Shown here: positions 171 through 24,729 of the stretch, in pieces
Layout: every line of letters begins with the position of its first letter
How positions within the stretch are numbered: position 1 is the stretch's first letter
Virus record (IMG/VR): IMGVR_UViG_3300049459_000259
Coordinates: 1-27,534 of that record
Length of the DNA stretch: 27,534 nt
Reading direction: 5' to 3' (one strand)
Source of the DNA: a virus
Made by a program: the position numbers and the translations under genes
The notes under the pieces: generated by a model
What the model was told of the DNA's origin: nothing
Databases searched by the model: none
Seen by the model: only the letters and a program-made list of their open reading frames with translations

Positions 171-527
171 CTACTTTCCCCCGTGCGACGGGAACAGGTC
201 GAGCTGGTTACGGGCGATGCTAGCCAGGCGCATCTGTTTGACGACTTTGTAGACCAGCTGCACGCAAACCCCATGCTTGGTTGCGACCTCATGATGATTG
301 CGGCCGTTCCAGTCGTCGTAAATCCGCAGGTGCAGCTTGGATGTCTGGATGCTGACGCCCTTGGGGATGTAGACCACTTGGCCGCCCCAGAGGTGAGCAA
401 ACAGCGTTGTGATTTCGATGCTGGTGGCCTCGGCAATCTCAGCACTGATCCCCAGGCTTTCCTGGATCACCTTAGCCACGGGTTCAATCGTTTCGCTCAG
501 AAGGTCAGTGCCTCGGATGGTGCTCAT
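171..527 (-). CDS. mor: Mor/C-family transcription activator
   Basis: A 118-residue protein of the Mor transcription activator family, the DNA-binding activators of middle (Mor) and late (C) transcription in Mu. The N-terminal half is helical (dimerisation region in the family). It is followed by the family's strand-forming linker (GGQVVYIPKG, about residues 48-57) and a C-terminal helix-turn-helix (about 70-102, with NHHEVATKHGV). The ATG at 527 overlaps the stop of the upstream gene (ATGA) and has a purine-rich GGGAGAG upstream; a longer start at 548 is possible but less likely. It is the last gene of the early operon, just before a strong terminator, so it is made only when the lytic programme runs. 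It is the natural candidate to act on the three repeated elements before the late gene blocks (9964, 18690, 24304); that link is inference. Confidence 0.88.
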   Translation of the reverse strand: MSTIRGTDLLSETIEPVAKVIQESLGISAEIAEATSIEITTLFAHLWGGQVVYIPKGVSIQTSKLHLRIYDDWNGRNHHEVATKHGVCVQLVYKVVKQMRLASIARNQLDLFPSHGGK

Positions 528-964
528 GATTCGACTCTCCCTATCCATTGCTTCAGTTGCTCAATTACCCGGCTGGCTTGCGCTGTGGTAAGCCATTGCA
601 GCGCGGAGACCTTGGTCATGCTCAATACAAACTTCGCCAGGGCTTGCTCCGACGGGTCCCGAACCGCGCCCAGGTCATGCAAGGTCAGCCAAAGCGAGCG
701 GATTTTTCTTGATTGTTCATCGTCCGCCAGCGGGCGCTTCTGTGCCTTCGTGGGGCGAACCTTGAAGCCGCGCAGCTTGAGTTGTTCCAGGACCTTCAGC
801 AGGCTTGGAACGCTCAGGTCTGCGGTCGAGGTCACCCTGCCCAGGCCCTTCATCGTGGTCAGCATCAAGCGGTAGGTGTCGTCATCCATGCCCAGCTCGC
901 GCCGGGCGACATGGATTAACTTGATATATCGAAGCCGGTCAGGATGGGCGCTCGCTGCATTCAC
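524..964 (-). CDS. DUF1018 protein, Mu gp16-like
   Basis: A protein of about 146 residues with the DUF1018/Mu gp16 signature: a short basic N-terminus, then RYIKLIHVARRELGMDDDTY and MLTTMKGLGRV, followed by a region rich in basic residues and a helical C-terminus ending in a QLKQW segment. The family occurs in early or middle regions of Mu-like phages and has no firmly assigned function. I chose the GTG at 964 because GGGAGG stands 6 nt upstream on the minus strand; an upstream GTG at 1009 has no comparable ribosome binding site. The start overlaps the end of the preceding gene by about 26 bp, and the stop overlaps the start of the mor-like gene (ATGA). This indicates translational coupling within the early operon. 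Confidence 0.82.
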   Translation of the reverse strand: MNAASAHPDRLRYIKLIHVARRELGMDDDTYRLMLTTMKGLGRVTSTADLSVPSLLKVLEQLKLRGFKVRPTKAQKRPLADDEQSRKIRSLWLTLHDLGAVRDPSEQALAKFVLSMTKVSALQWLTTAQASRVIEQLKQWIGRVES

Positions 965-8643: not shown

Positions 8644-9147
8644 ATGCGCAGTAAGGATGACGACTTGGTCCAGGATCTTTCCGCCCGCCTTACGGAGGAG
8701 ATCGGGAACTTGCCCGATGACGGTGAAGATCATGAATTGCGGATCAAGATAAAAGGCAGGGGCAATAAAACCAATATCAACCTGGGAAGCCAGACTTTTG
8801 AGATAAAGTCCGGGAAAGAATCCCCGCCGCGAAACAGCGACCGAGCCAAGCAGTGCCCTCAGTGCGGAAAATGCACTTGGCGATATACTCAATTGTGTAT
8901 GCATTGTGACTACGACTTACACCGCCACGACCAGATTGAGGCAGAAGAGCTCGCAGAGATTCAAAAAAACCAACATAACGCACGCCTGCTGAAAATAGGT
9001 GCGGCCTGCACTGTCGTAGCAATCGGCGGCTTCTCCCTGAGCAGCTATATTCCGGAAGGGCTTAAGAACTGGGCTATTGGGGCCGCCGCGGGAGCTGGCC
9101 TGCTGGCGTTTCTAATTATCCAGGGAATGGATACGAAATCTTCTTAA
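8644..9147 (+). CDS. Zinc-ribbon membrane protein, probable prophage cargo
   Basis: A 167-residue protein that I cannot place in a named family. The N-terminal ~65 residues are charged and soluble, with a short beta-rich segment (LRIKIKGRGNKTNINLGSQ). A zinc ribbon follows (CPQCGKC at about 72-78 and CMHCDYD at about 88-94, two CxxC knuckles), then a charged helix rich in Glu, Gln and His (HDQIEAEELAEIQKNQH). Two hydrophobic segments near the C-terminus (about 118-134 and 141-160) probably form a membrane hairpin. AAGGAG lies 5 nt before the ATG at 8644. It sits 17 bp after the repressor stop, on the same strand, so it could be expressed in the lysogen. Superinfection exclusion or another conversion function is a reasonable guess only. 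Confidence 0.75.
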   Translation: MRSKDDDLVQDLSARLTEEIGNLPDDGEDHELRIKIKGRGNKTNINLGSQTFEIKSGKESPPRNSDRAKQCPQCGKCTWRYTQLCMHCDYDLHRHDQIEAEELAEIQKNQHNARLLKIGAACTVVAIGGFSLSSYIPEGLKNWAIGAAAGAGLLAFLIIQGMDTKSS

Positions 9148-9203
9148 CACTCATACGCACCGGGCCTGCGTACACATAGCACATCACTCAAGGAGTAACT
9201 TAA

Positions 9204-9920
9204 ATGGATGTTCTGGCTATCATTATCCAAATCGCCGGCTGTGTTTTTATATTGATAACAGTCTTGGGCGTACTTGCTCCGGCGTTATTCAAAGACAAAA
9301 AAACAGGGGCGGTACCAAAGCGTCAAGAGTTTTTGATTGGTGGTATCGCCCTGACCGCATTGTTATTCAGTGTCGCGTGGGTTATTGCACCCGTTACACC
9401 TAAGCGGGAAGCCAATGTGGCGGTAAGCCAACCCGCGACCGAAACCGGCGCCGCCGTTCAATCTCCGTCGTCCAAGTCGTTTCAGGTATCCCCCGAGGCT
9501 TTCCGGCAGTCTTTCAACAGCATCGTTGGCACGATTGGCAGTCACTACAGGGCCCCTGAGTTTGTCATCGACAAAGGCGAAGTCAACGACACGTTCAAGC
9601 ATTTGTTTGGGGATGAGGTCGGCCTGCTCGGCGTCGTAAACAAAAACGACGGAACGCTTCGAAGCATTATGGTCATGATGACGGGCGGCGGTAAGGACAT
9701 GGCCAAGCCCTTGGCCGTTTTGTTGGCTGCGACCGAGGCGCTGAACGCTAAAGTGCCAAGGGAGGAGAACACCAAGGTTATCGTCGAGATGTTCAAGCAA
9801 TCTCTCGCTGAAATCGAAACCAGCAAGACGTTTGAAAATGTCGTCGGCAATGTCCGCTATACCGCTGTCGCCAGCCGCGAGCTGGGGCTGTGGTTTACCA
9901 TTGACCCGGAAGAAAGCTAA
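9204..9920 (+). CDS. Membrane-anchored hypothetical protein, probable prophage cargo
   Basis: A 238-residue protein of unknown family. Two N-terminal membrane segments are visible: about 4-28 (VLAIIIQIAGCVFILITVLG) and about 44-63 (FLIGGIALTALLFSVAWVIA). A low-complexity Ser/Thr/Ala/Pro linker (about 70-95) leads to a soluble domain (about 95-238) of mixed alpha/beta character, with FVIDKGEVNDTFKHLFGDEV and MVMMTGGGKDMAKPLAVLL. There is no lipobox and no catalytic motif that I recognise. The ATG at 9204 has AAGGAG about 8 nt upstream. It follows the zinc-ribbon membrane gene by 56 bp in the same direction and precedes the first late regulatory element. The pair looks like an accessory insertion between repressor and lysis genes. 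Confidence 0.75.
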   Translation: MDVLAIIIQIAGCVFILITVLGVLAPALFKDKKTGAVPKRQEFLIGGIALTALLFSVAWVIAPVTPKREANVAVSQPATETGAAVQSPSSKSFQVSPEAFRQSFNSIVGTIGSHYRAPEFVIDKGEVNDTFKHLFGDEVGLLGVVNKNDGTLRSIMVMMTGGGKDMAKPLAVLLAATEALNAKVPREENTKVIVEMFKQSLAEIETSKTFENVVGNVRYTAVASRELGLWFTIDPEES

Positions 9921-9963
9921 CGGCTCCCCCAGATAAACGCGTTCGCAAAGCGCGGCCCCCATC

Positions 9964-9983
9964 TCTTTAAACCTGATTAAAAG
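9964..9983 (+). promoter_or_regulatory. Late regulatory element, copy 1 (lysis/packaging block)
   Basis: The sequence TCTTTAAACCTGATTAAAAG is repeated at 18689-18708 and 24303-24322 with one variable base in the middle (T or C); the last base of each copy is G at 9983, 18708 and 24322. The outer parts form an imperfect dyad (CTTTAA and TTAAAAG). It lies in the non-coding gap 9921-10067, 84 bp before the endolysin ATG. No standard -35/-10 pair is obvious beside it, as expected for an activator-dependent promoter. Its position corresponds to the Mu lys promoter. Confidence 0.75.
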
Positions 9984-9996
9984 CCTTCCCGCCGCC

Positions 9997-10016
9997 CGCC
10001 GCCAATCATGGCGGCG
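9997..10016 (+). repeat. Hairpin in the leader of the lysis block
   Basis: CGCCGCC at 9997-10003 and GGCGGCG at 10010-10016 form a perfect 7-bp GC stem with an AATCAT loop. It lies between the first late element and the endolysin start. No T-run follows, so it is more likely an mRNA 5' structure than a terminator. Confidence 0.5.
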
Positions 10017-16733: not shown

Positions 16734-17210
16734 ATGTTCACCGTTGAATTGGATCATCAGCGTCTGCAGGACGCGTTGCGCAAAGTTGAGTGGGCCGTCG
16801 GGGACCTCGCGCCGTTGATGCGCGGCATTGCGGCCGAGTTGCTAAGCCAGACAGAGGAGAACTTTGAAAAAGAGGGGCGGCCCGAGTGGACGGGTCTGTC
16901 GGATACGACCATCGAGCGCCGGGCGAAAAACGGCAACTGGCCCGGGCAGATGTTGCAGGTCAGCGCCGCCGGGTTGGCGGCGTCGGTTACCAGCCTGGCG
17001 ACTGACAGCTTGGCGCTGGTTGGCAGCAATAAGCCTTATGCGGCGATGATGCATTTTGGCGGGGCGAAATCGGACTTTCCGCACCTATGGGGTGATATTC
17101 CGGGGCGGCCGTTTTTGCCGATGGATACAGAGGGTGTGATTCAGCCCGAGGCGGAGGAAGCGATTCTAGAATTGGCGTTGCATCACCTCGAAAAAGCGGC
17201 CCGCCTGTAG
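16734..17210 (+). CDS. Virion morphogenesis protein G (Mu gpG / P2 gpS-type)
   Basis: A 158-residue protein of the phage virion morphogenesis family (Mu gpG, related to P2 gpS tail completion protein). It has an N-terminal helix (LDHQRLQDALRKVEWAVGDL), the motif GRPEWTGLSDTTIERRAKNG (about 47-66), LVGSNKPYAAMMHFGGAKSD (about 96-115) and a C-terminal IPGRPFLPMDTEG. GGAGG lies about 8 nt before the ATG. It ends the first late head block, as in Mu, where gpG precedes the I promoter. Here a minus-strand cargo gene is inserted after it. Confidence 0.88.
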   Translation: MFTVELDHQRLQDALRKVEWAVGDLAPLMRGIAAELLSQTEENFEKEGRPEWTGLSDTTIERRAKNGNWPGQMLQVSAAGLAASVTSLATDSLALVGSNKPYAAMMHFGGAKSDFPHLWGDIPGRPFLPMDTEGVIQPEAEEAILELALHHLEKAARL

Positions 17211-17323
17211 CCCCCTCAGAAGCATTTTGCCGCTGCTGTGGCTGCGGTGCATTGGGCCTTATCACTAAAAGTTGTCGTAAACGCTTTATAAAGCCCTTCG
17301 TATGAATGAAAACGCCTTAGTCG
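17211..17323. other. Intergenic gap between convergent gpG and RES genes
   Basis: No gene is seen. The gap becomes AT-rich toward the RES gene and contains a perfect 12-bp palindrome GCTTTATAAAGC at 17283-17294. No hairpin with a T-run clear enough to call a terminator is visible on either strand, although convergent transcripts must end near here. Confidence 0.5.
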
Positions 17324-18589
17324 CTACCTTCTTTCGTAGTAGGCGTCGATATCGGACTCAAGCTGGCCGTCTATGACCCTCTCATCTTCAACAGTGAATT
17401 TTACTTCCGAGACTGTGTGCTGAGTTATTGAGTTGGGAACGAACTCTAATGCCGGCTTTCTTTCGCTGCGTTTACGCCCTTTAGCGCCGCGTTCACCGTC
17501 ACTGGCTATCGCGTGGGAGAACAACACAATGTTCTTGCCACCTTTGTGCTGCGACGACGCGTAAATCACCCCATCCACCGGAGGCTCGCATTCCGTGGCA
17601 AGAAATCCTGCGATGACCTGGGTTTTGAGATAATCAAGCTCCCCGCCAGGCAACACGGGCTGACTGATAAGGTTATGGAAAGTACGTAGAAACTTTCGCC
17701 GCTCGCTTTTGCTCCGATAGTCAGGATCGAAGTAGCTAAGGGTGTGACGTTCATAGGCGACTTCAAGAGCTGTGAAATCGAAGACCGAAATTTCACGCGT
17801 CAGCTTGAACTCTCCACTTATGACAACTCCCCCAACCGCCGGCCTAAGTTCGTAGATGCAGGTTTTGGGGGTCTCTAATGCACCATAGAAGGCGGGTATC
17901 CCCTTCGGACTCATTCGCCAATCTTTCGTAAGCTCTCGAGGAGGCGCAGCTAACTGCTTGGAGGGTTCATCGATAATCGCCTGGCCCTCTCGGGGCGATG
18001 TGGGTTTACGCGCTCGAAATATCTTCGTTTTATCATCGGGGCCCAAAGAGCGTAAGACACTAGTGCTGTGCCGGCCCGCGACCCTAAGATCAGAAATCCC
18101 AGTGAATAGTGAGCTTAGGTACTCTTCCGCCTTGCGGTTGAAGAAACGGTTTCTATGGGTGACACCATCAAGAAAATCAGCCCAGTCACGTTCTGCCCCT
18201 ACCGGCGCCAGCTCTTTGCGTACATAGGTCTCGGAATCAAAAAAACCTGCATCCCAGGCAGAAGCGTCGACAAGTTTGTCTTGAATTGCCCGGACAAGAT
18301 CATGATCTTCATTGAGCTGTAAAATTTCCCCGATGTAGAAAGCTTGCGAGTCACCTACGGGGTGATAGTAGGCGATGCGGTCTTTTTCCGGGTCCCATAC
18401 TTCGATCTCACCCCCCATTTCAAAGTAGTCCTGGAAGATCACAGCAACGTCCTGGACGAGGCTATCCAAGTTCATCGACTTTCGCCTTCCCCCGCAGATC
18501 GAGCATTCGGCGCTGCGCCTTGACTTCTTAATGACAGCCTTGAGGTACTCATCGCCCACGCATTTGTAGCAAACCGCTTCTTCGTCCAT
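17324..18589 (-). CDS. HEPN/RES N-terminal domain and RES domain protein, candidate toxin or phage defence cargo
   Basis: A 421-residue two-part protein on the strand opposite to the late genes. The N-terminal region opens with a zinc ribbon (C7-x2-C10 and C29-x2-C32) and continues with the helical HEPN/RES N-terminal domain 1, ending in DWADFLDGVTHRNRFF (about 135-150). The C-terminal RES domain (about 187-365) shows the three expected signature sites: Arg in KIFRARKP (R192/R194), Glu in YELRPAVGG (E247) and Ser in IYASSQ (S345/S346). RES domains degrade NAD and act as toxins in toxin-antitoxin pairs. No Xre/Xis antitoxin gene is next to it, so the HEPN part may sense infection or restrain activity. 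It is visibly AT-richer than its neighbours. The ATG at 18589 (GGGGA upstream) is preferred to 18601. Confidence 0.88.
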   Translation of the reverse strand: MDEEAVCYKCVGDEYLKAVIKKSRRSAECSICGGRRKSMNLDSLVQDVAVIFQDYFEMGGEIEVWDPEKDRIAYYHPVGDSQAFYIGEILQLNEDHDLVRAIQDKLVDASAWDAGFFDSETYVRKELAPVGAERDWADFLDGVTHRNRFFNRKAEEYLSSLFTGISDLRVAGRHSTSVLRSLGPDDKTKIFRARKPTSPREGQAIIDEPSKQLAAPPRELTKDWRMSPKGIPAFYGALETPKTCIYELRPAVGGVVISGEFKLTREISVFDFTALEVAYERHTLSYFDPDYRSKSERRKFLRTFHNLISQPVLPGGELDYLKTQVIAGFLATECEPPVDGVIYASSQHKGGKNIVLFSHAIASDGERGAKGRKRSERKPALEFVPNSITQHTVSEVKFTVEDERVIDGQLESDIDAYYERR

Positions 18590-18689
18590 TGATTTCCCCA
18601 TTGATCGCTAAGGCCATAGCCGTGAAAGGATCATCGCATCTACCGTTTGGTGGCCCAAATGATTTAGCACTTTCACTTTGGAGGGCACT

Positions 18690-18708
18690 CTTTAAACCCG
18701 ATTAAAAG
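18690..18708 (+). promoter_or_regulatory. Late regulatory element, copy 2 (protease/capsid/tail block)
   Basis: CTTTAAACCCGATTAAAAG, identical to copies 1 and 3 except for C instead of T at the central position. It ends 56 bp before the ATG of the gpI-like protease gene, in the gap between the divergent RES gene and gpI. It corresponds to the place of the Mu I promoter. The following CCGGGCCAC (18711-18719) also follows copy 3 (24329-24337). Confidence 0.75.
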
Positions 18709-18764
18709 CCCCGGGCCACCCATTCGCCCAGTCTGTGCGCATCACCTCCACGCAGCGCACAGCC

Positions 18765-19784
18765 ATGAAACCACTGCACATCATCAAACCCGGCACGCAC
18801 ACCGCCATGAGCGGCGCCCGTGTCGAGTTCCGCGAATCCGACCTGGCCGCCACGGTGGCCGCCTATGACCCGGCGCTGCACGAGGCCCCGATGGTCATTG
18901 GCCACCCCAAGCACGACGCGCCGGCCGCCGGCTGGATCAAATCACTGACGGCCACCGCGCAAGGGCTGATCGCCGAGCCGCAGCAGGTCGACGCCGCCTT
19001 CGCCGAGCAGGTCGCCAAGGGCCGCTACAAAAAAATTTCCGCCACCTTTTACCACCCCGACGCCGCCAACAACCCGGTGCCCGGCGTGTATTACCTGCGC
19101 CACGTCGGCTTCCTCGGCGCCCAGCCGCCCGCCGTGAAAGGCCTGCGCCCCATTGAATTGGCCGACGGCGAAGACGGCGTTATCGAGTTCGGCGATTACG
19201 GCCACGAGCTCAACTCCGACATGTGGCGCCGTTTCCGCGAATGGTTGATCGGCAAGTTCGACAAGGAAACCGCCGACCAGGTGTCCCCGTCCTGGGTGAT
19301 CGACAGCCTCGCCGAAATCGGCCACCGCCCCCAGCAGCCCCTGCAAACCGCTTTCGCTGAGCCCACCCGTCCCGCCGAGGAACCTGCCGTGAACGAACAA
19401 GAAAGAGCCGCCCTGGAGGCGGAGAACAAGCGCCTAAAAGCCGATATCGCCAAGCGGGACAAGGCCGCCCGCGCCTCGGCCCAAAAGAAGGTCCACGCCT
19501 TGAATGTCGAGTTTGCCGAAAGACTGGTGGCCGCGGGCATGAAGCCGGTTCACGCCCCGGTGGTGATTGCCGCCCTGGACTACGCCGATTCCAGCGAAAC
19601 CCCGTTGGAGTTCGGCGAAGAGGACGCCCGCGAGCCGTTGAGCGATGGCCTGAAGGCGATCTTCACCGACCTGGCCGGCGGCGTCAGCTTCGCCGAGGTC
19701 GCCACCAAGTCCCGGGCCGGCAAGGCCGCCAACCCACCCGTCAACCCCTTGCTGGCTGACGCTGAAATCCGCGCCCAACGATAG
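18765..19784 (+). CDS. Head maturation protease with scaffold region (Mu gpI-like)
   Basis: A 339-residue protein. The N-terminal half has the Mu gpI protease signature: MKPLHIIKPGTHTAMSG at the start, PMVIGHPKHDAPAAGWI (about 44-60), YKKISATFYHP (about 88-98) and LRHVGFLGAQPPAVKGL (about 110-127). The C-terminal half (about 209-339) is a charged helical region typical of an assembly scaffold, with a coiled-coil segment EQERAALEAENKRLKADI. The protease processes head proteins during maturation. The ATG at 18765 matches the family N-terminus; a GTG at 18735 in the same frame is less likely. A nested in-frame start at 19389 probably makes a separate scaffold. Confidence 0.9.
   Translation: MKPLHIIKPGTHTAMSGARVEFRESDLAATVAAYDPALHEAPMVIGHPKHDAPAAGWIKSLTATAQGLIAEPQQVDAAFAEQVAKGRYKKISATFYHPDAANNPVPGVYYLRHVGFLGAQPPAVKGLRPIELADGEDGVIEFGDYGHELNSDMWRRFREWLIGKFDKETADQVSPSWVIDSLAEIGHRPQQPLQTAFAEPTRPAEEPAVNEQERAALEAENKRLKADIAKRDKAARASAQKKVHALNVEFAERLVAAGMKPVHAPVVIAALDYADSSETPLEFGEEDAREPLSDGLKAIFTDLAGGVSFAEVATKSRAGKAANPPVNPLLADAEIRAQR
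19389..19784 (+). CDS. Nested in-frame scaffold protein (Mu gpZ-like)
   Basis: Within the gpI-like gene, a GTG at 19389 in the same frame has GAGGAA 6 nt upstream and would give a 131-residue protein beginning MNEQERAALEAENKRLKAD. This start falls at the junction between protease and scaffold regions. Mu makes its scaffold Z from such an internal start in gene I, so the same arrangement is likely here. The sequence shows the start signals; production of the short form is inference. Confidence 0.55.
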   Translation: MNEQERAALEAENKRLKADIAKRDKAARASAQKKVHALNVEFAERLVAAGMKPVHAPVVIAALDYADSSETPLEFGEEDAREPLSDGLKAIFTDLAGGVSFAEVATKSRAGKAANPPVNPLLADAEIRAQR

Positions 19785-23726: not shown

Positions 23727-24251
23727 ATGGCCGGTTTTAGCGCACACCGCATCACCAACGCGGCGATCTACCTGGACGGCGCCAGTTTCTTCGGCCGCGC
23801 CGAGGAGATCGACCTGGGCTCGATCAAAGCCGTGATGAGTGACTTTCAGGGGCTGGGCATGGTCGGCCTGGTCGAACTGCCGGACGGCATCGATAAGCTC
23901 GAGGGCAAGGTCGTTTGGAACAGTCTCTACATCGACGCCGCGAAAAAGATGGCCACGCCGCTCAAAACGGTGCAGCTGCAGTGCCGTTCCAACGTCCAGG
24001 TGTTCAACAGCACGGGCCTGCAGGACGAGATCCCGCTGGTCACGCTGATGACCGTGATGTTCAAGGAGTACGCCCTGGGCGGCTATAAGCCGAGGGACCC
24101 GAGCAAGTTTGAAACGCCGTTCTCCGCCACCTATGTGCGGCAGATTCTCAACGGCGAAGAAGTGGTGTTGCTGGATTACTTGGCGAATATTTTCAAGGTC
24201 GGCGGGCAGGATCAGTTGATCAAGTACCGGCAGAACATTGGGCAGGCTTGA
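23727..24251 (+). CDS. Tail tube protein (P2 FII-like)
   Basis: A 174-residue major tail tube subunit of the P2 FII family. It contains FSAHRITNAAIYLDGASFFG, GMVGLVELPDGIDKLEGKV and the beta-rich region up to LVTLMTVMFKEYALGGYKP, ending in the conserved helix and strand (NGEEVVLLDYLANIFKVGG). It stacks as hexameric rings inside the sheath. Its ATG follows the sheath stop directly, with GGGAG about 9 nt upstream. It is the last gene of the second late block, before a terminator at 24281-24298. Confidence 0.93.
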   Translation: MAGFSAHRITNAAIYLDGASFFGRAEEIDLGSIKAVMSDFQGLGMVGLVELPDGIDKLEGKVVWNSLYIDAAKKMATPLKTVQLQCRSNVQVFNSTGLQDEIPLVTLMTVMFKEYALGGYKPRDPSKFETPFSATYVRQILNGEEVVLLDYLANIFKVGGQDQLIKYRQNIGQA

Positions 24252-24279
24252 GGCCTGAGCCGCCGTAACAACAACCAAA

Positions 24280-24308
24280 GCCCCGCCGTCGTGCGGGGTA
24301 CTTCTTTA
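24280..24308 (+). terminator. Probable terminator after the tube gene
   Basis: CCCCGC (24281-24286) and GCGGGG (24293-24298) form a 6-bp GC stem with a 6-nt loop, extendable by one G-T pair, followed by the T-rich TACTTCTTT. It stands in the 148-bp gap between the tube gene and the tail assembly gene, directly before the third late element. The T-run is short and overlaps that element. Confidence 0.55.
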
Positions 24309-24322
24309 AACCTGATTAAAAG
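24304..24322 (+). promoter_or_regulatory. Late regulatory element, copy 3 (tail assembly block)
   Basis: CTTTAAACCTGATTAAAAG, identical to copy 1 over 19 bases. It ends 77 bp before the ATG of the tail assembly gene at 24400, directly after a hairpin that should end the previous transcript. It corresponds in order to the Mu P promoter, which starts the distal tail genes. Confidence 0.75.
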
Positions 24323-24399
24323 AACGCGCCGGGCCACGGCGTGATGCTTAGGGCTCTTCGATAGACGCCGATCCGAGCGATCAACCTGGAGCATCAACG

Positions 24400-24729
24400 A
24401 TGGCCGACAAACTCAGCTTTACCCTCAAATTCCCCTTCAAAACCGCCTCCGGCGTGTTGCTGCAAACGCTGCCGGTCAGGCGCCTGAAACGCAAAGACAT
24501 CAGTGCCGGCCAGGCCGCCACCAAAGACGAAGGCGTCTTGGAAGACATGCTCATTGCCAAGATGTTTGGCCTGACGCTGGAGGACCTCGGTGAATTCGAC
24601 ATTGCTGATTCAAAGTCAGCCAGCGAGGTGCTGCGGGAAATGTCCAATGGACGAGACCTGTCTGAAATCCTGGGACGAGGCGCTGCTGCTGGTGCTGCGG
24701 ATGCAGCCCTCGGAGATAGCCCAACTTGA
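24400..24729 (+). CDS. Tail assembly chaperone (P2 gpE-like)
   Basis: A 109-residue protein of the phage tail assembly chaperone E type (Mu gp41-like). A beta-rich start (KLSFTLKFPFKTASGVLLQT) is followed by RRLKRKDISAGQAATKDEGV and the conserved helical centre (LIAKMFGLTLEDLGEFDIAD), ending in a Gly/Ala-rich tail. It precedes the tape measure gene, as tail chaperones always do. A second overlapping frame follows, so an extended product by frameshift is likely, as for P2 E+E' and Mu 41/42. Confidence 0.87.
   Translation: MADKLSFTLKFPFKTASGVLLQTLPVRRLKRKDISAGQAATKDEGVLEDMLIAKMFGLTLEDLGEFDIADSKSASEVLREMSNGRDLSEILGRGAAAGAADAALGDSPT

Follow-up and report, generated by a model that had tools for sequence, protein, structure and literature searches.

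An antitoxin-less RES gene as exchangeable cargo in the gpG-gpI slot of Mu-like prophages, with a predicted role in abortive infection

Between its homologues of the Mu genes G and I, a Mu-like phage carries a gene whose single protein joins a zinc ribbon, a domain of the HEPN/RES N-terminal domain 1 (NTD1) type and a RES domain. A survey of the same slot in related phages strongly supports the view that this gene is optional cargo rather than a structural gene. Domain, residues and fold all predict that its product is an NAD-consuming enzyme, which we regard as very probable, and an anti-phage function is predicted with fair confidence. The reading that accounts best for these observations, and that we hold to be moderately likely, is that a Mu-like Pseudomonas prophage carries here a single gene, without antitoxin, for an abortive-infection protein that consumes NAD; abortive infection is a plausible role in view of the genomic context.

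The window analysed here is the whole of a 27,534-base IMG/VR record and represents part of a Mu-like phage. Pfam searches of the window identified a Mor activator (171..548, minus strand; Pfam Mor, E 3.3e-27), GemA, Mu F, gpG, gpI, the major capsid protein, the tail tube and the tail assembly chaperone, as well as a transposase match (rve, 27.8 bits) that falls under its cut-off. Relatives retrieved through gpI belong to Pseudomonas in 9 of 10 named genomes, and the nearest phage record, Komp_PAO1_1, is 76% identical over 24% of the query. The RES gene occupies 17324..18601 on the minus strand, with an ORF of 425 aa. It converges with the gpG homologue on its left (16734..17210, plus strand; Phage_tail_S, E 4.8e-21) and diverges from the gpI homologue on its right, a protease/scaffold gene (18735..19784, plus strand; Mu-like_Pro, E 9.6e-9) whose true start may be 18765. 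Translation of the RES gene probably begins at 18589 (Met5, 421 aa), because 7 of 10 aligned relatives start at the Met5 column and a GGGGA Shine-Dalgarno-like stretch, recognized by eye, precedes this codon. The GC content across the gene is 0.50-0.53, versus 0.61-0.67 on both sides, in agreement with the initial annotation, which had described a minus-strand gene AT-richer than its surroundings. A promoter scan detected no sigma-70-like promoter near the gene.

The cargo status of the gene is established by comparison with other loci. We examined 61 stretches, 41 of which contained both gpG and gpI, leaving 36 loci after merging of near-identical ones; one stretch with a partial gpI match (L057) and 19 stretches without gpG or gpI were dropped from the counts. 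As the survey was anchored on gpI similarity to the window, it is biased towards close relatives. The gpG-gpI gap is empty in 14 of the 36 non-redundant Mu-like loci, with 232-237 bp to the second gpI start, and occupied in 22, namely by a zinc ribbon-NTD1-RES gene in 12 and by other AT-rich genes in 10. All 12 slot NTD1-RES genes lie on the minus strand relative to gpG, and each of the occupied gaps listed has a lower GC content than gpI. When the window is set aside together with three loci that came from RES searches (L084, L111 and L112), 32 sites are left, 14 empty and 18 occupied, 8 of them with RES. Some further stretches, which end short of gpG, likewise have an NTD1-RES gene next to gpI (for example L016, L017 and L069). 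With 14/36 gaps empty and 10/36 filled by unrelated genes, we reject the possibility of a structural gene of this phage group, an objection that the initial annotation had raised against its own proposal of a cargo gene at a boundary between late transcription units; the proposal itself is strongly supported.

The alternative cargo in the ten other loci consists of 270-aa, 367-aa, 339-aa (with 133-aa), 219-aa and 281-aa proteins, and those scanned among the 270-aa, 367-aa, 339-aa and 219-aa proteins had no Pfam match. A single one of 10 scanned cargo proteins exceeded the Pfam cut-off, an FRG protein in a stretch without gpG (L022), which also matches the PADLOC candidate PDC-S15. The 270-aa family is the second commonest in the slot (L006:4128-4940; L036, L040, L041, L045), and its L006 and L041 members match neither Pfam nor PADLOC. 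The same holds for the 367-aa family, encoded on the minus strand (L002:2154-3257; L048:3774-4865). In L008:3441-4627, an ORF pair that resembles a transposase by eye lies inside a cargo gene of the 270-aa family. Elsewhere (L114:8258-10618), an NTD1-RES gene stands next to a 270-aa cargo gene that shares 85% identity with its L006 counterpart; a 4.3-kb stretch around this RES gene (L083) contains none of the Mu genes searched, and the locus is perhaps a prophage remnant.

Cargo in the slot is swapped independently of its flanks. Near-identical flanks can hold different cargo, as in L002, whose gpG and gpI are 97% and 95% identical to those of the window and which nevertheless carries the 367-aa family. 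Two pairs of loci with gpI proteins 97% and 95% identical (L026/L031 and L017/L016) have RES proteins sharing 46% and 44% identity, respectively, while in another pair (L043/L005) the RES proteins are 99% identical and the flanks 93-94% (gpG 93%). In a tree of 52 proteins, from which a sequence cut short (L068) and the weakest match (L135) were omitted and in which we assigned the slot labels ourselves, 6 gains or losses are required to account for the slot copies, and well-supported branches force at least 5 of these; some of the 6 changes could be losses. The ratio dN/dS could be computed for 5 of 66 pairs, all between relatives: it is 0.05-0.09 in four (dS 0.89, hence unsaturated, in one and 1.9-3.1 in three) and 0.23 in a near-identical pair, while dS is saturated in all 11 pairs that involve the window's own gene.

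Two conserved elements border the slot. On the gpI side, immediately beyond the RES gene, lies a late-promoter-like element, CTCTTTAAACCCGATTAAAAG (18688..18708, plus strand), upstream of gpI and kept in empty and occupied sites alike. It is one of three copies in the window of a 21-bp element, CTCTTTAAACYYGATTAAAAG, each ahead of a late operon, the second (9963..9983, plus strand) standing before an operon that starts near 10008 and the third (24302..24322, plus strand) before the tail-assembly-chaperone gene at 24400. This pattern, which was read from one of the three sites, had no occurrence in 100 shuffles; it is present in 54 of the 57 loci L002-L058, two of the exceptions having no gpI start and the third (L058) being a distant relative. 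In Mu, the activator C is required at the late promoters lys, I, P and mom (PMC4461284), and by analogy CTCTTTAAACYYGATTAAAAG probably serves this phage group as the site at which its late promoters are activated; the Mor homologue would then be a candidate activator of the late elements. On the gpG side, 66 bases after the gpG stop, the element GTAAACGCTTTATAAAGC (17277..17294, plus strand), with its 12-bp palindrome, is found as one copy in the window and, within 4 mismatches, in 39 of 41 loci, 35 of them at an offset of 62-66 from the gpG stop. In four stretches that carry additional cargo (L006, L007, L111 and L112), this distance grows to 1.2-8.8 kb. A leader like GGCTCCGGTTCATC precedes it by about 37 bases in most loci, and in L006 and L111 this leader stands beside the displaced element, both having been moved together by the extra cargo; in L112 no leader was found. 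A gyrase site, like the central one known from Mu, and a regulator site are our guesses for GTAAACGCTTTATAAAGC. Both elements are also present between the gpG and gpI matches of Komp_PAO1_1. As CTCTTTAAACYYGATTAAAAG and GTAAACGCTTTATAAAGC are conserved on its two sides, the RES cargo is located between them, antisense to the late operons and outside them. Two further regions of the window adjoin late-promoter-like elements. At 8644-9920, ahead of the lysis-side element, are two AT-richer plus-strand ORFs without a Pfam match, one of 167 aa with Cys pairs and one of 238 aa with a hydrophobic N terminus, as judged by eye. At 24251-24400 is a second variable gap, from tail tube to tail assembly chaperone, whose length ranges from 141 to 882 bp among the nine stretches in which the two genes could be located.

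The three-part architecture of the protein, with the Arg, Glu and Ser of a RES domain, had been read from the sequence by the initial annotation and is confirmed by profile searches and alignments, with a marginal match for NTD1 in the window protein. These used 34 aligned members drawn from prophages, chromosomes and plasmids, the window protein counted. The zinc ribbon (C11-x2-C14 ... C33-x2-C36; 18494..18571, minus strand) retains its cysteines C11, C14, C33 and C36 in 11/11 members of a first alignment and in 33/34 of the wider one, where the remaining row was read without the N-terminal end. HEPN/RES-NTD1, at residues 28-159 (18125..18520, minus strand), matches PF18870 with E 1.4e-5 and 25.8 bits, just under the curated cut-off of 27.4; this profile is matched at E <=0.01 by 23/34 aligned members, with 7.9e-12 as the best value. 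The RES domain, at residues 224-364 (17510..17932, minus strand), matches PF08808 with E 9.4e-13 and 48.9 bits versus a cut-off of 23.2, and all 34 members match this profile at E <=0.01. Its candidate active site comprises R229, Y239, E251, S349 and N357, with R196 and R198 located just ahead of the domain. Across the 34 members, R196, R198, R229, E251, S349 and N357 are invariant and Y239 is kept in 33.

An hhalign comparison with the toxin of a RES-Xre pair aligned its GRWNPKG..VY..E segment with R229, Y239 and E251 (38 columns, probability 57%, E 1e-4). For NatT, the published active-site residues include R23, R82, Y93, S184 and N193 (PMC11535050), and S349 and N357 were matched to S184 and N193 by pattern only. 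As sequence searches of the PDB returned no RES chain at E <=10, the residue mapping rests on this short hhalign match and on pattern. Accounts of the key RES residues differ, one giving R-E-S (PMC12457610) and another R, with Y and N replacing S and E (PMC9503650); the window protein has both sets. HEPN/RES-NTD1 takes its name from the HEPN or RES domains next to which it occurs, and we also considered a HEPN RNase. The R-x4-6-H motif of that type is absent from the window protein at the best candidate position, H149, and ends at this position in 3/34 aligned members; a count over 16 proteins gave scattered matches, some of them ending at H149. The HEPN RNase was thus rejected.

Structure prediction is consistent with a RES enzyme. 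The AlphaFold model, built from 11 sequences, is of moderate confidence (mean pLDDT 73.8, pTM 0.65). Its top fold matches in VIA were MbcT (Z 10.0 over 160 residues at 3.8 A) and NatT (Z 8.3), followed by diphtheria-toxin chains (Z <=8.2), ParT (7.3), the P. putida RES protein (6.9) and VPA0770 (6.7), all of which belong to one fold superfamily; according to the tool's own warning, Z values <8 may mean little. Foldseek gave no PDB match to the model at E <=0.001. The predicted fold matches best that of the RES toxins, which is ADP-ribosyltransferase-like, and the NAD-consuming activity put forward at the outset is supported, as a prediction, by the Pfam domain, the conserved residues and this resemblance to MbcT and NatT. 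The N-terminal part modelled alone (pLDDT 78) produced winged-helix-like matches over about residues 43-126; these are weak, with a Z of 6.1 at best in VIA, so that a nucleic-acid-sensing module there is only a guess.

No antitoxin accompanies the gene. The free space beside it amounts to 113 bp towards gpG and 133 bp towards gpI, which leaves no room for an adjacent antitoxin, and no gene for an Xre/MbcA/ParS-type antitoxin adjoins it on either flank, as the initial annotation had observed. Among the neighbours common to at least three compared loci, we found no antitoxin-like family, and a toxin-antitoxin pair was rejected on these two grounds. The neighbours that are shared include the 270-aa cargo family (5 loci), Gabija genes (3 loci) and a TetR-like gene that, with others, is common to one clade of six loci at apparently one chromosomal site. 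A 271-aa family (L067:8881-9696; L072:7154-7930) occurs in differing orientation near NTD1-RES genes of two distant branches; it was found near L067 and near the near-identical L072, L073 and L075, and its L067 member matches neither Pfam nor PADLOC. We read none of these shared neighbours as antitoxins.

Several relatives stand in the vicinity of defence genes, although these are picked examples, taken without a background control. A gap of about 10 kb in a Pseudomonas fluorescens H24 prophage (L111:1500-13256) contains two NTD1-RES genes and a RES-Xre pair, which indicates that the two kinds of RES gene coexist as separate genes, along with a putative AbiC protein, an Mrr-type nuclease and a pyocin-S domain protein. 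In the gap of L112, an AbiC-like protein accompanies two NTD1-RES genes. These slot islands, together with the Hachiman-linked copy described below and the anti-CRISPR gene of D3112, provide the contextual support for a role in abortive infection. In L069, a protein matching the PADLOC candidate PDC-S25, and more weakly ThsA, is encoded 3.1 kb past the RES gene, away from gpI. A phage contig without the Mu genes searched carries an NTD1-RES gene 0.3 kb from Hachiman HamB/HamA (L065:5010-10271), and Gabija genes are found near two chromosomal copies, at distances of 0.1 kb (L128) and 1.4 kb (L117). No model of PADLOC-DB 2.0.0 matches the window protein or any of the 34 aligned members.

A single-sequence pattern search of genome and viral contigs returned no relatives; these were found with an alignment as query. 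Relatives are present in 301 of 72,556 plasmid records, 256 of them matching over at least 80% of the query, and in 2 of 50,697 phage records, one being a 501-kb Salmonella contig. Within the genus of G001, the Pseudomonas genome of L049, the A1 profile has matches in 46 of 298 genomes, some of them partial. The DNA of an E. coli copy (L133) is present in 42 of 5,426 E. coli genomes, always on plasmids.

How such a protein might act can be outlined from its family, fold and location. In the lysogen, the RES gene would be transcribed leftward from a promoter of its own that is no part of the late operons. The zinc ribbon and HEPN/RES-NTD1 would hold the RES enzyme inactive until they met a product of the infecting phage, in line with the 'sensor plus effector' design suggested by the initial annotation, which we infer as well. 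The RES domain, with its ADP-ribosyltransferase fold, would then consume NAD(P)+. Phosphorolysis, the reaction of NatT and MbcT, would be the most likely route, though some RES enzymes ADP-ribosylate targets instead; described RES activities comprise phosphorylase, ADP-ribosyltransferase and predicted glycohydrolase (PMC12457610). Growth of the cell would stop and replication of the rival phage would be aborted, thereby protecting the host population of the prophage. A finding that counts against an anti-phage reading is that NatT, a well-studied RES toxin, is reported to have no effect on >50 phage isolates (PMC11535050).

Other roles have to be weighed against this one. The RES protein may be triggered by prophage loss or induction or by stress, and serve as an addiction or persistence factor in the manner of RES-Xre toxins. 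This explanation, which we consider unlikely, gains from the implication of RES toxins in persistence, plasmid stability and stress (PMC11535050) and from the frequency of the family on plasmids, both in the plasmid records at large and for the E. coli copy. It is opposed by the lack of an antitoxin beside the gene or recurring among its relatives, as addiction normally requires a labile second component, and by the AbiC-like and Mrr-like genes that the slot also holds.

A still less likely role would be to benefit the phage that carries the gene, for instance through interference with NAD-using immunity or with metabolism of the host during lysis. That AcrF2 is encoded in the homologous slot of D3112, and that the anti-CRISPR genes of Mu-like phages of P. 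aeruginosa reside in a plasticity region of low GC (PMC4378225), would fit with counter-defence; the orientation of the RES gene, antisense to the late operons, does not, nor does the presence of relatives on plasmids and in parts of chromosomes with none of these Mu genes close by, and the loss of NAD would probably be damaging to replication of the phage as well. Finally, we think it very improbable that the gene is inert or decaying cargo, acquired without a present function. The empty promoter scan and the saturated dS of the window copy, which precludes a dN/dS estimate, leave some room for this, but the 425-aa frame is intact, the candidate catalytic residues are invariant, dN/dS is low among relatives and the tree indicates repeated entry into the slot. 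Abortive infection by NAD consumption remains our preferred reading.

Parts of this picture were already known. Fusions of HEPN/RES-NTD1 and RES, some with a further N-terminal Zn ribbon, were described in 2013 by Anantharaman et al. (PMC3710099), who treat them under abortive infection and predict a conflict role; these proteins (PF18870 plus PF08808) have the same three-part architecture as the window protein. The RES domain was predicted there to be an RNase, whereas the RES toxins studied later act on NAD. The initial annotation had called the design little studied, which holds for experiments, none on the zinc ribbon-NTD1-RES architecture being found in the open-licence literature, but not for the architecture, in view of that 2013 description. 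With the RES-Xre modules (NatT, MbcT, ParT, P. putida RES) the window protein shares the RES fold and the R/E/S/N pattern; it differs from them by the lack of an Xre antitoxin and by the fusion of RES to a zinc ribbon and NTD1. Phage-borne RES-HTH pairs were suggested to inhibit superinfecting phages in a computational survey of 2022 (PMC9503650).

The slot itself also has a precedent. In D3112, acrF2 lies between homologues of Mu G and Mu gp32, the product of gene I. In Mu-like phages of P. aeruginosa, the anti-CRISPR genes were assigned by a 2014 study to plasticity region G, of low GC (PMC4378225). The D3112 anti-CRISPR slot thus shares with that of the window the G-I position, low GC and variable content, but the cargo ORFs of the surveyed relatives are mostly large (133 to 436 aa) and include toxin-like genes; the records of JBD25 and JBD67 have no gene annotated in the gap. 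In sum, the architecture, the suggested action of phage-borne RES proteins against rival phages and the slot are known; what appears to be new is that NTD1-RES is the commonest slot cargo in this Pseudomonas Mu-like group, that it is swapped and that two boundary elements enclose the slot.

NAD-depleting abortive-infection systems based on TIR and SIR2 share the proposed logic, in which infection triggers NAD loss, but their catalytic domains are unrelated to RES. A 2024 study (PMC11535050) names TIR and SIR2 as the known NAD-targeting immunity and states that no RES toxin-antitoxin system had been implicated in bacterial immunity; our search of the open-licence literature likewise turned up no experiments in favour of a RES immune effector. 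With roughly even confidence, we propose that RES would constitute a third class of NAD-targeting immune effector beside TIR and SIR2, that zinc ribbon-NTD1-RES would combine sensor, inhibitor and effector in one polypeptide and that Mu-like phages would exchange such genes through the anti-CRISPR slot. One and the same slot, used for zinc ribbon-NTD1-RES and for anti-CRISPRs, would then serve both sides of the phage-bacterium conflict. As RES proteins are widespread, a RES gene that has been repeatedly acquired and swapped in a conflict-gene slot offers a sharp, one-gene test case for RES in immunity, and a slot with recognizable elements on both sides provides a way to mine further candidates, such as the 270-aa, 367-aa, 339-aa and 219-aa proteins.
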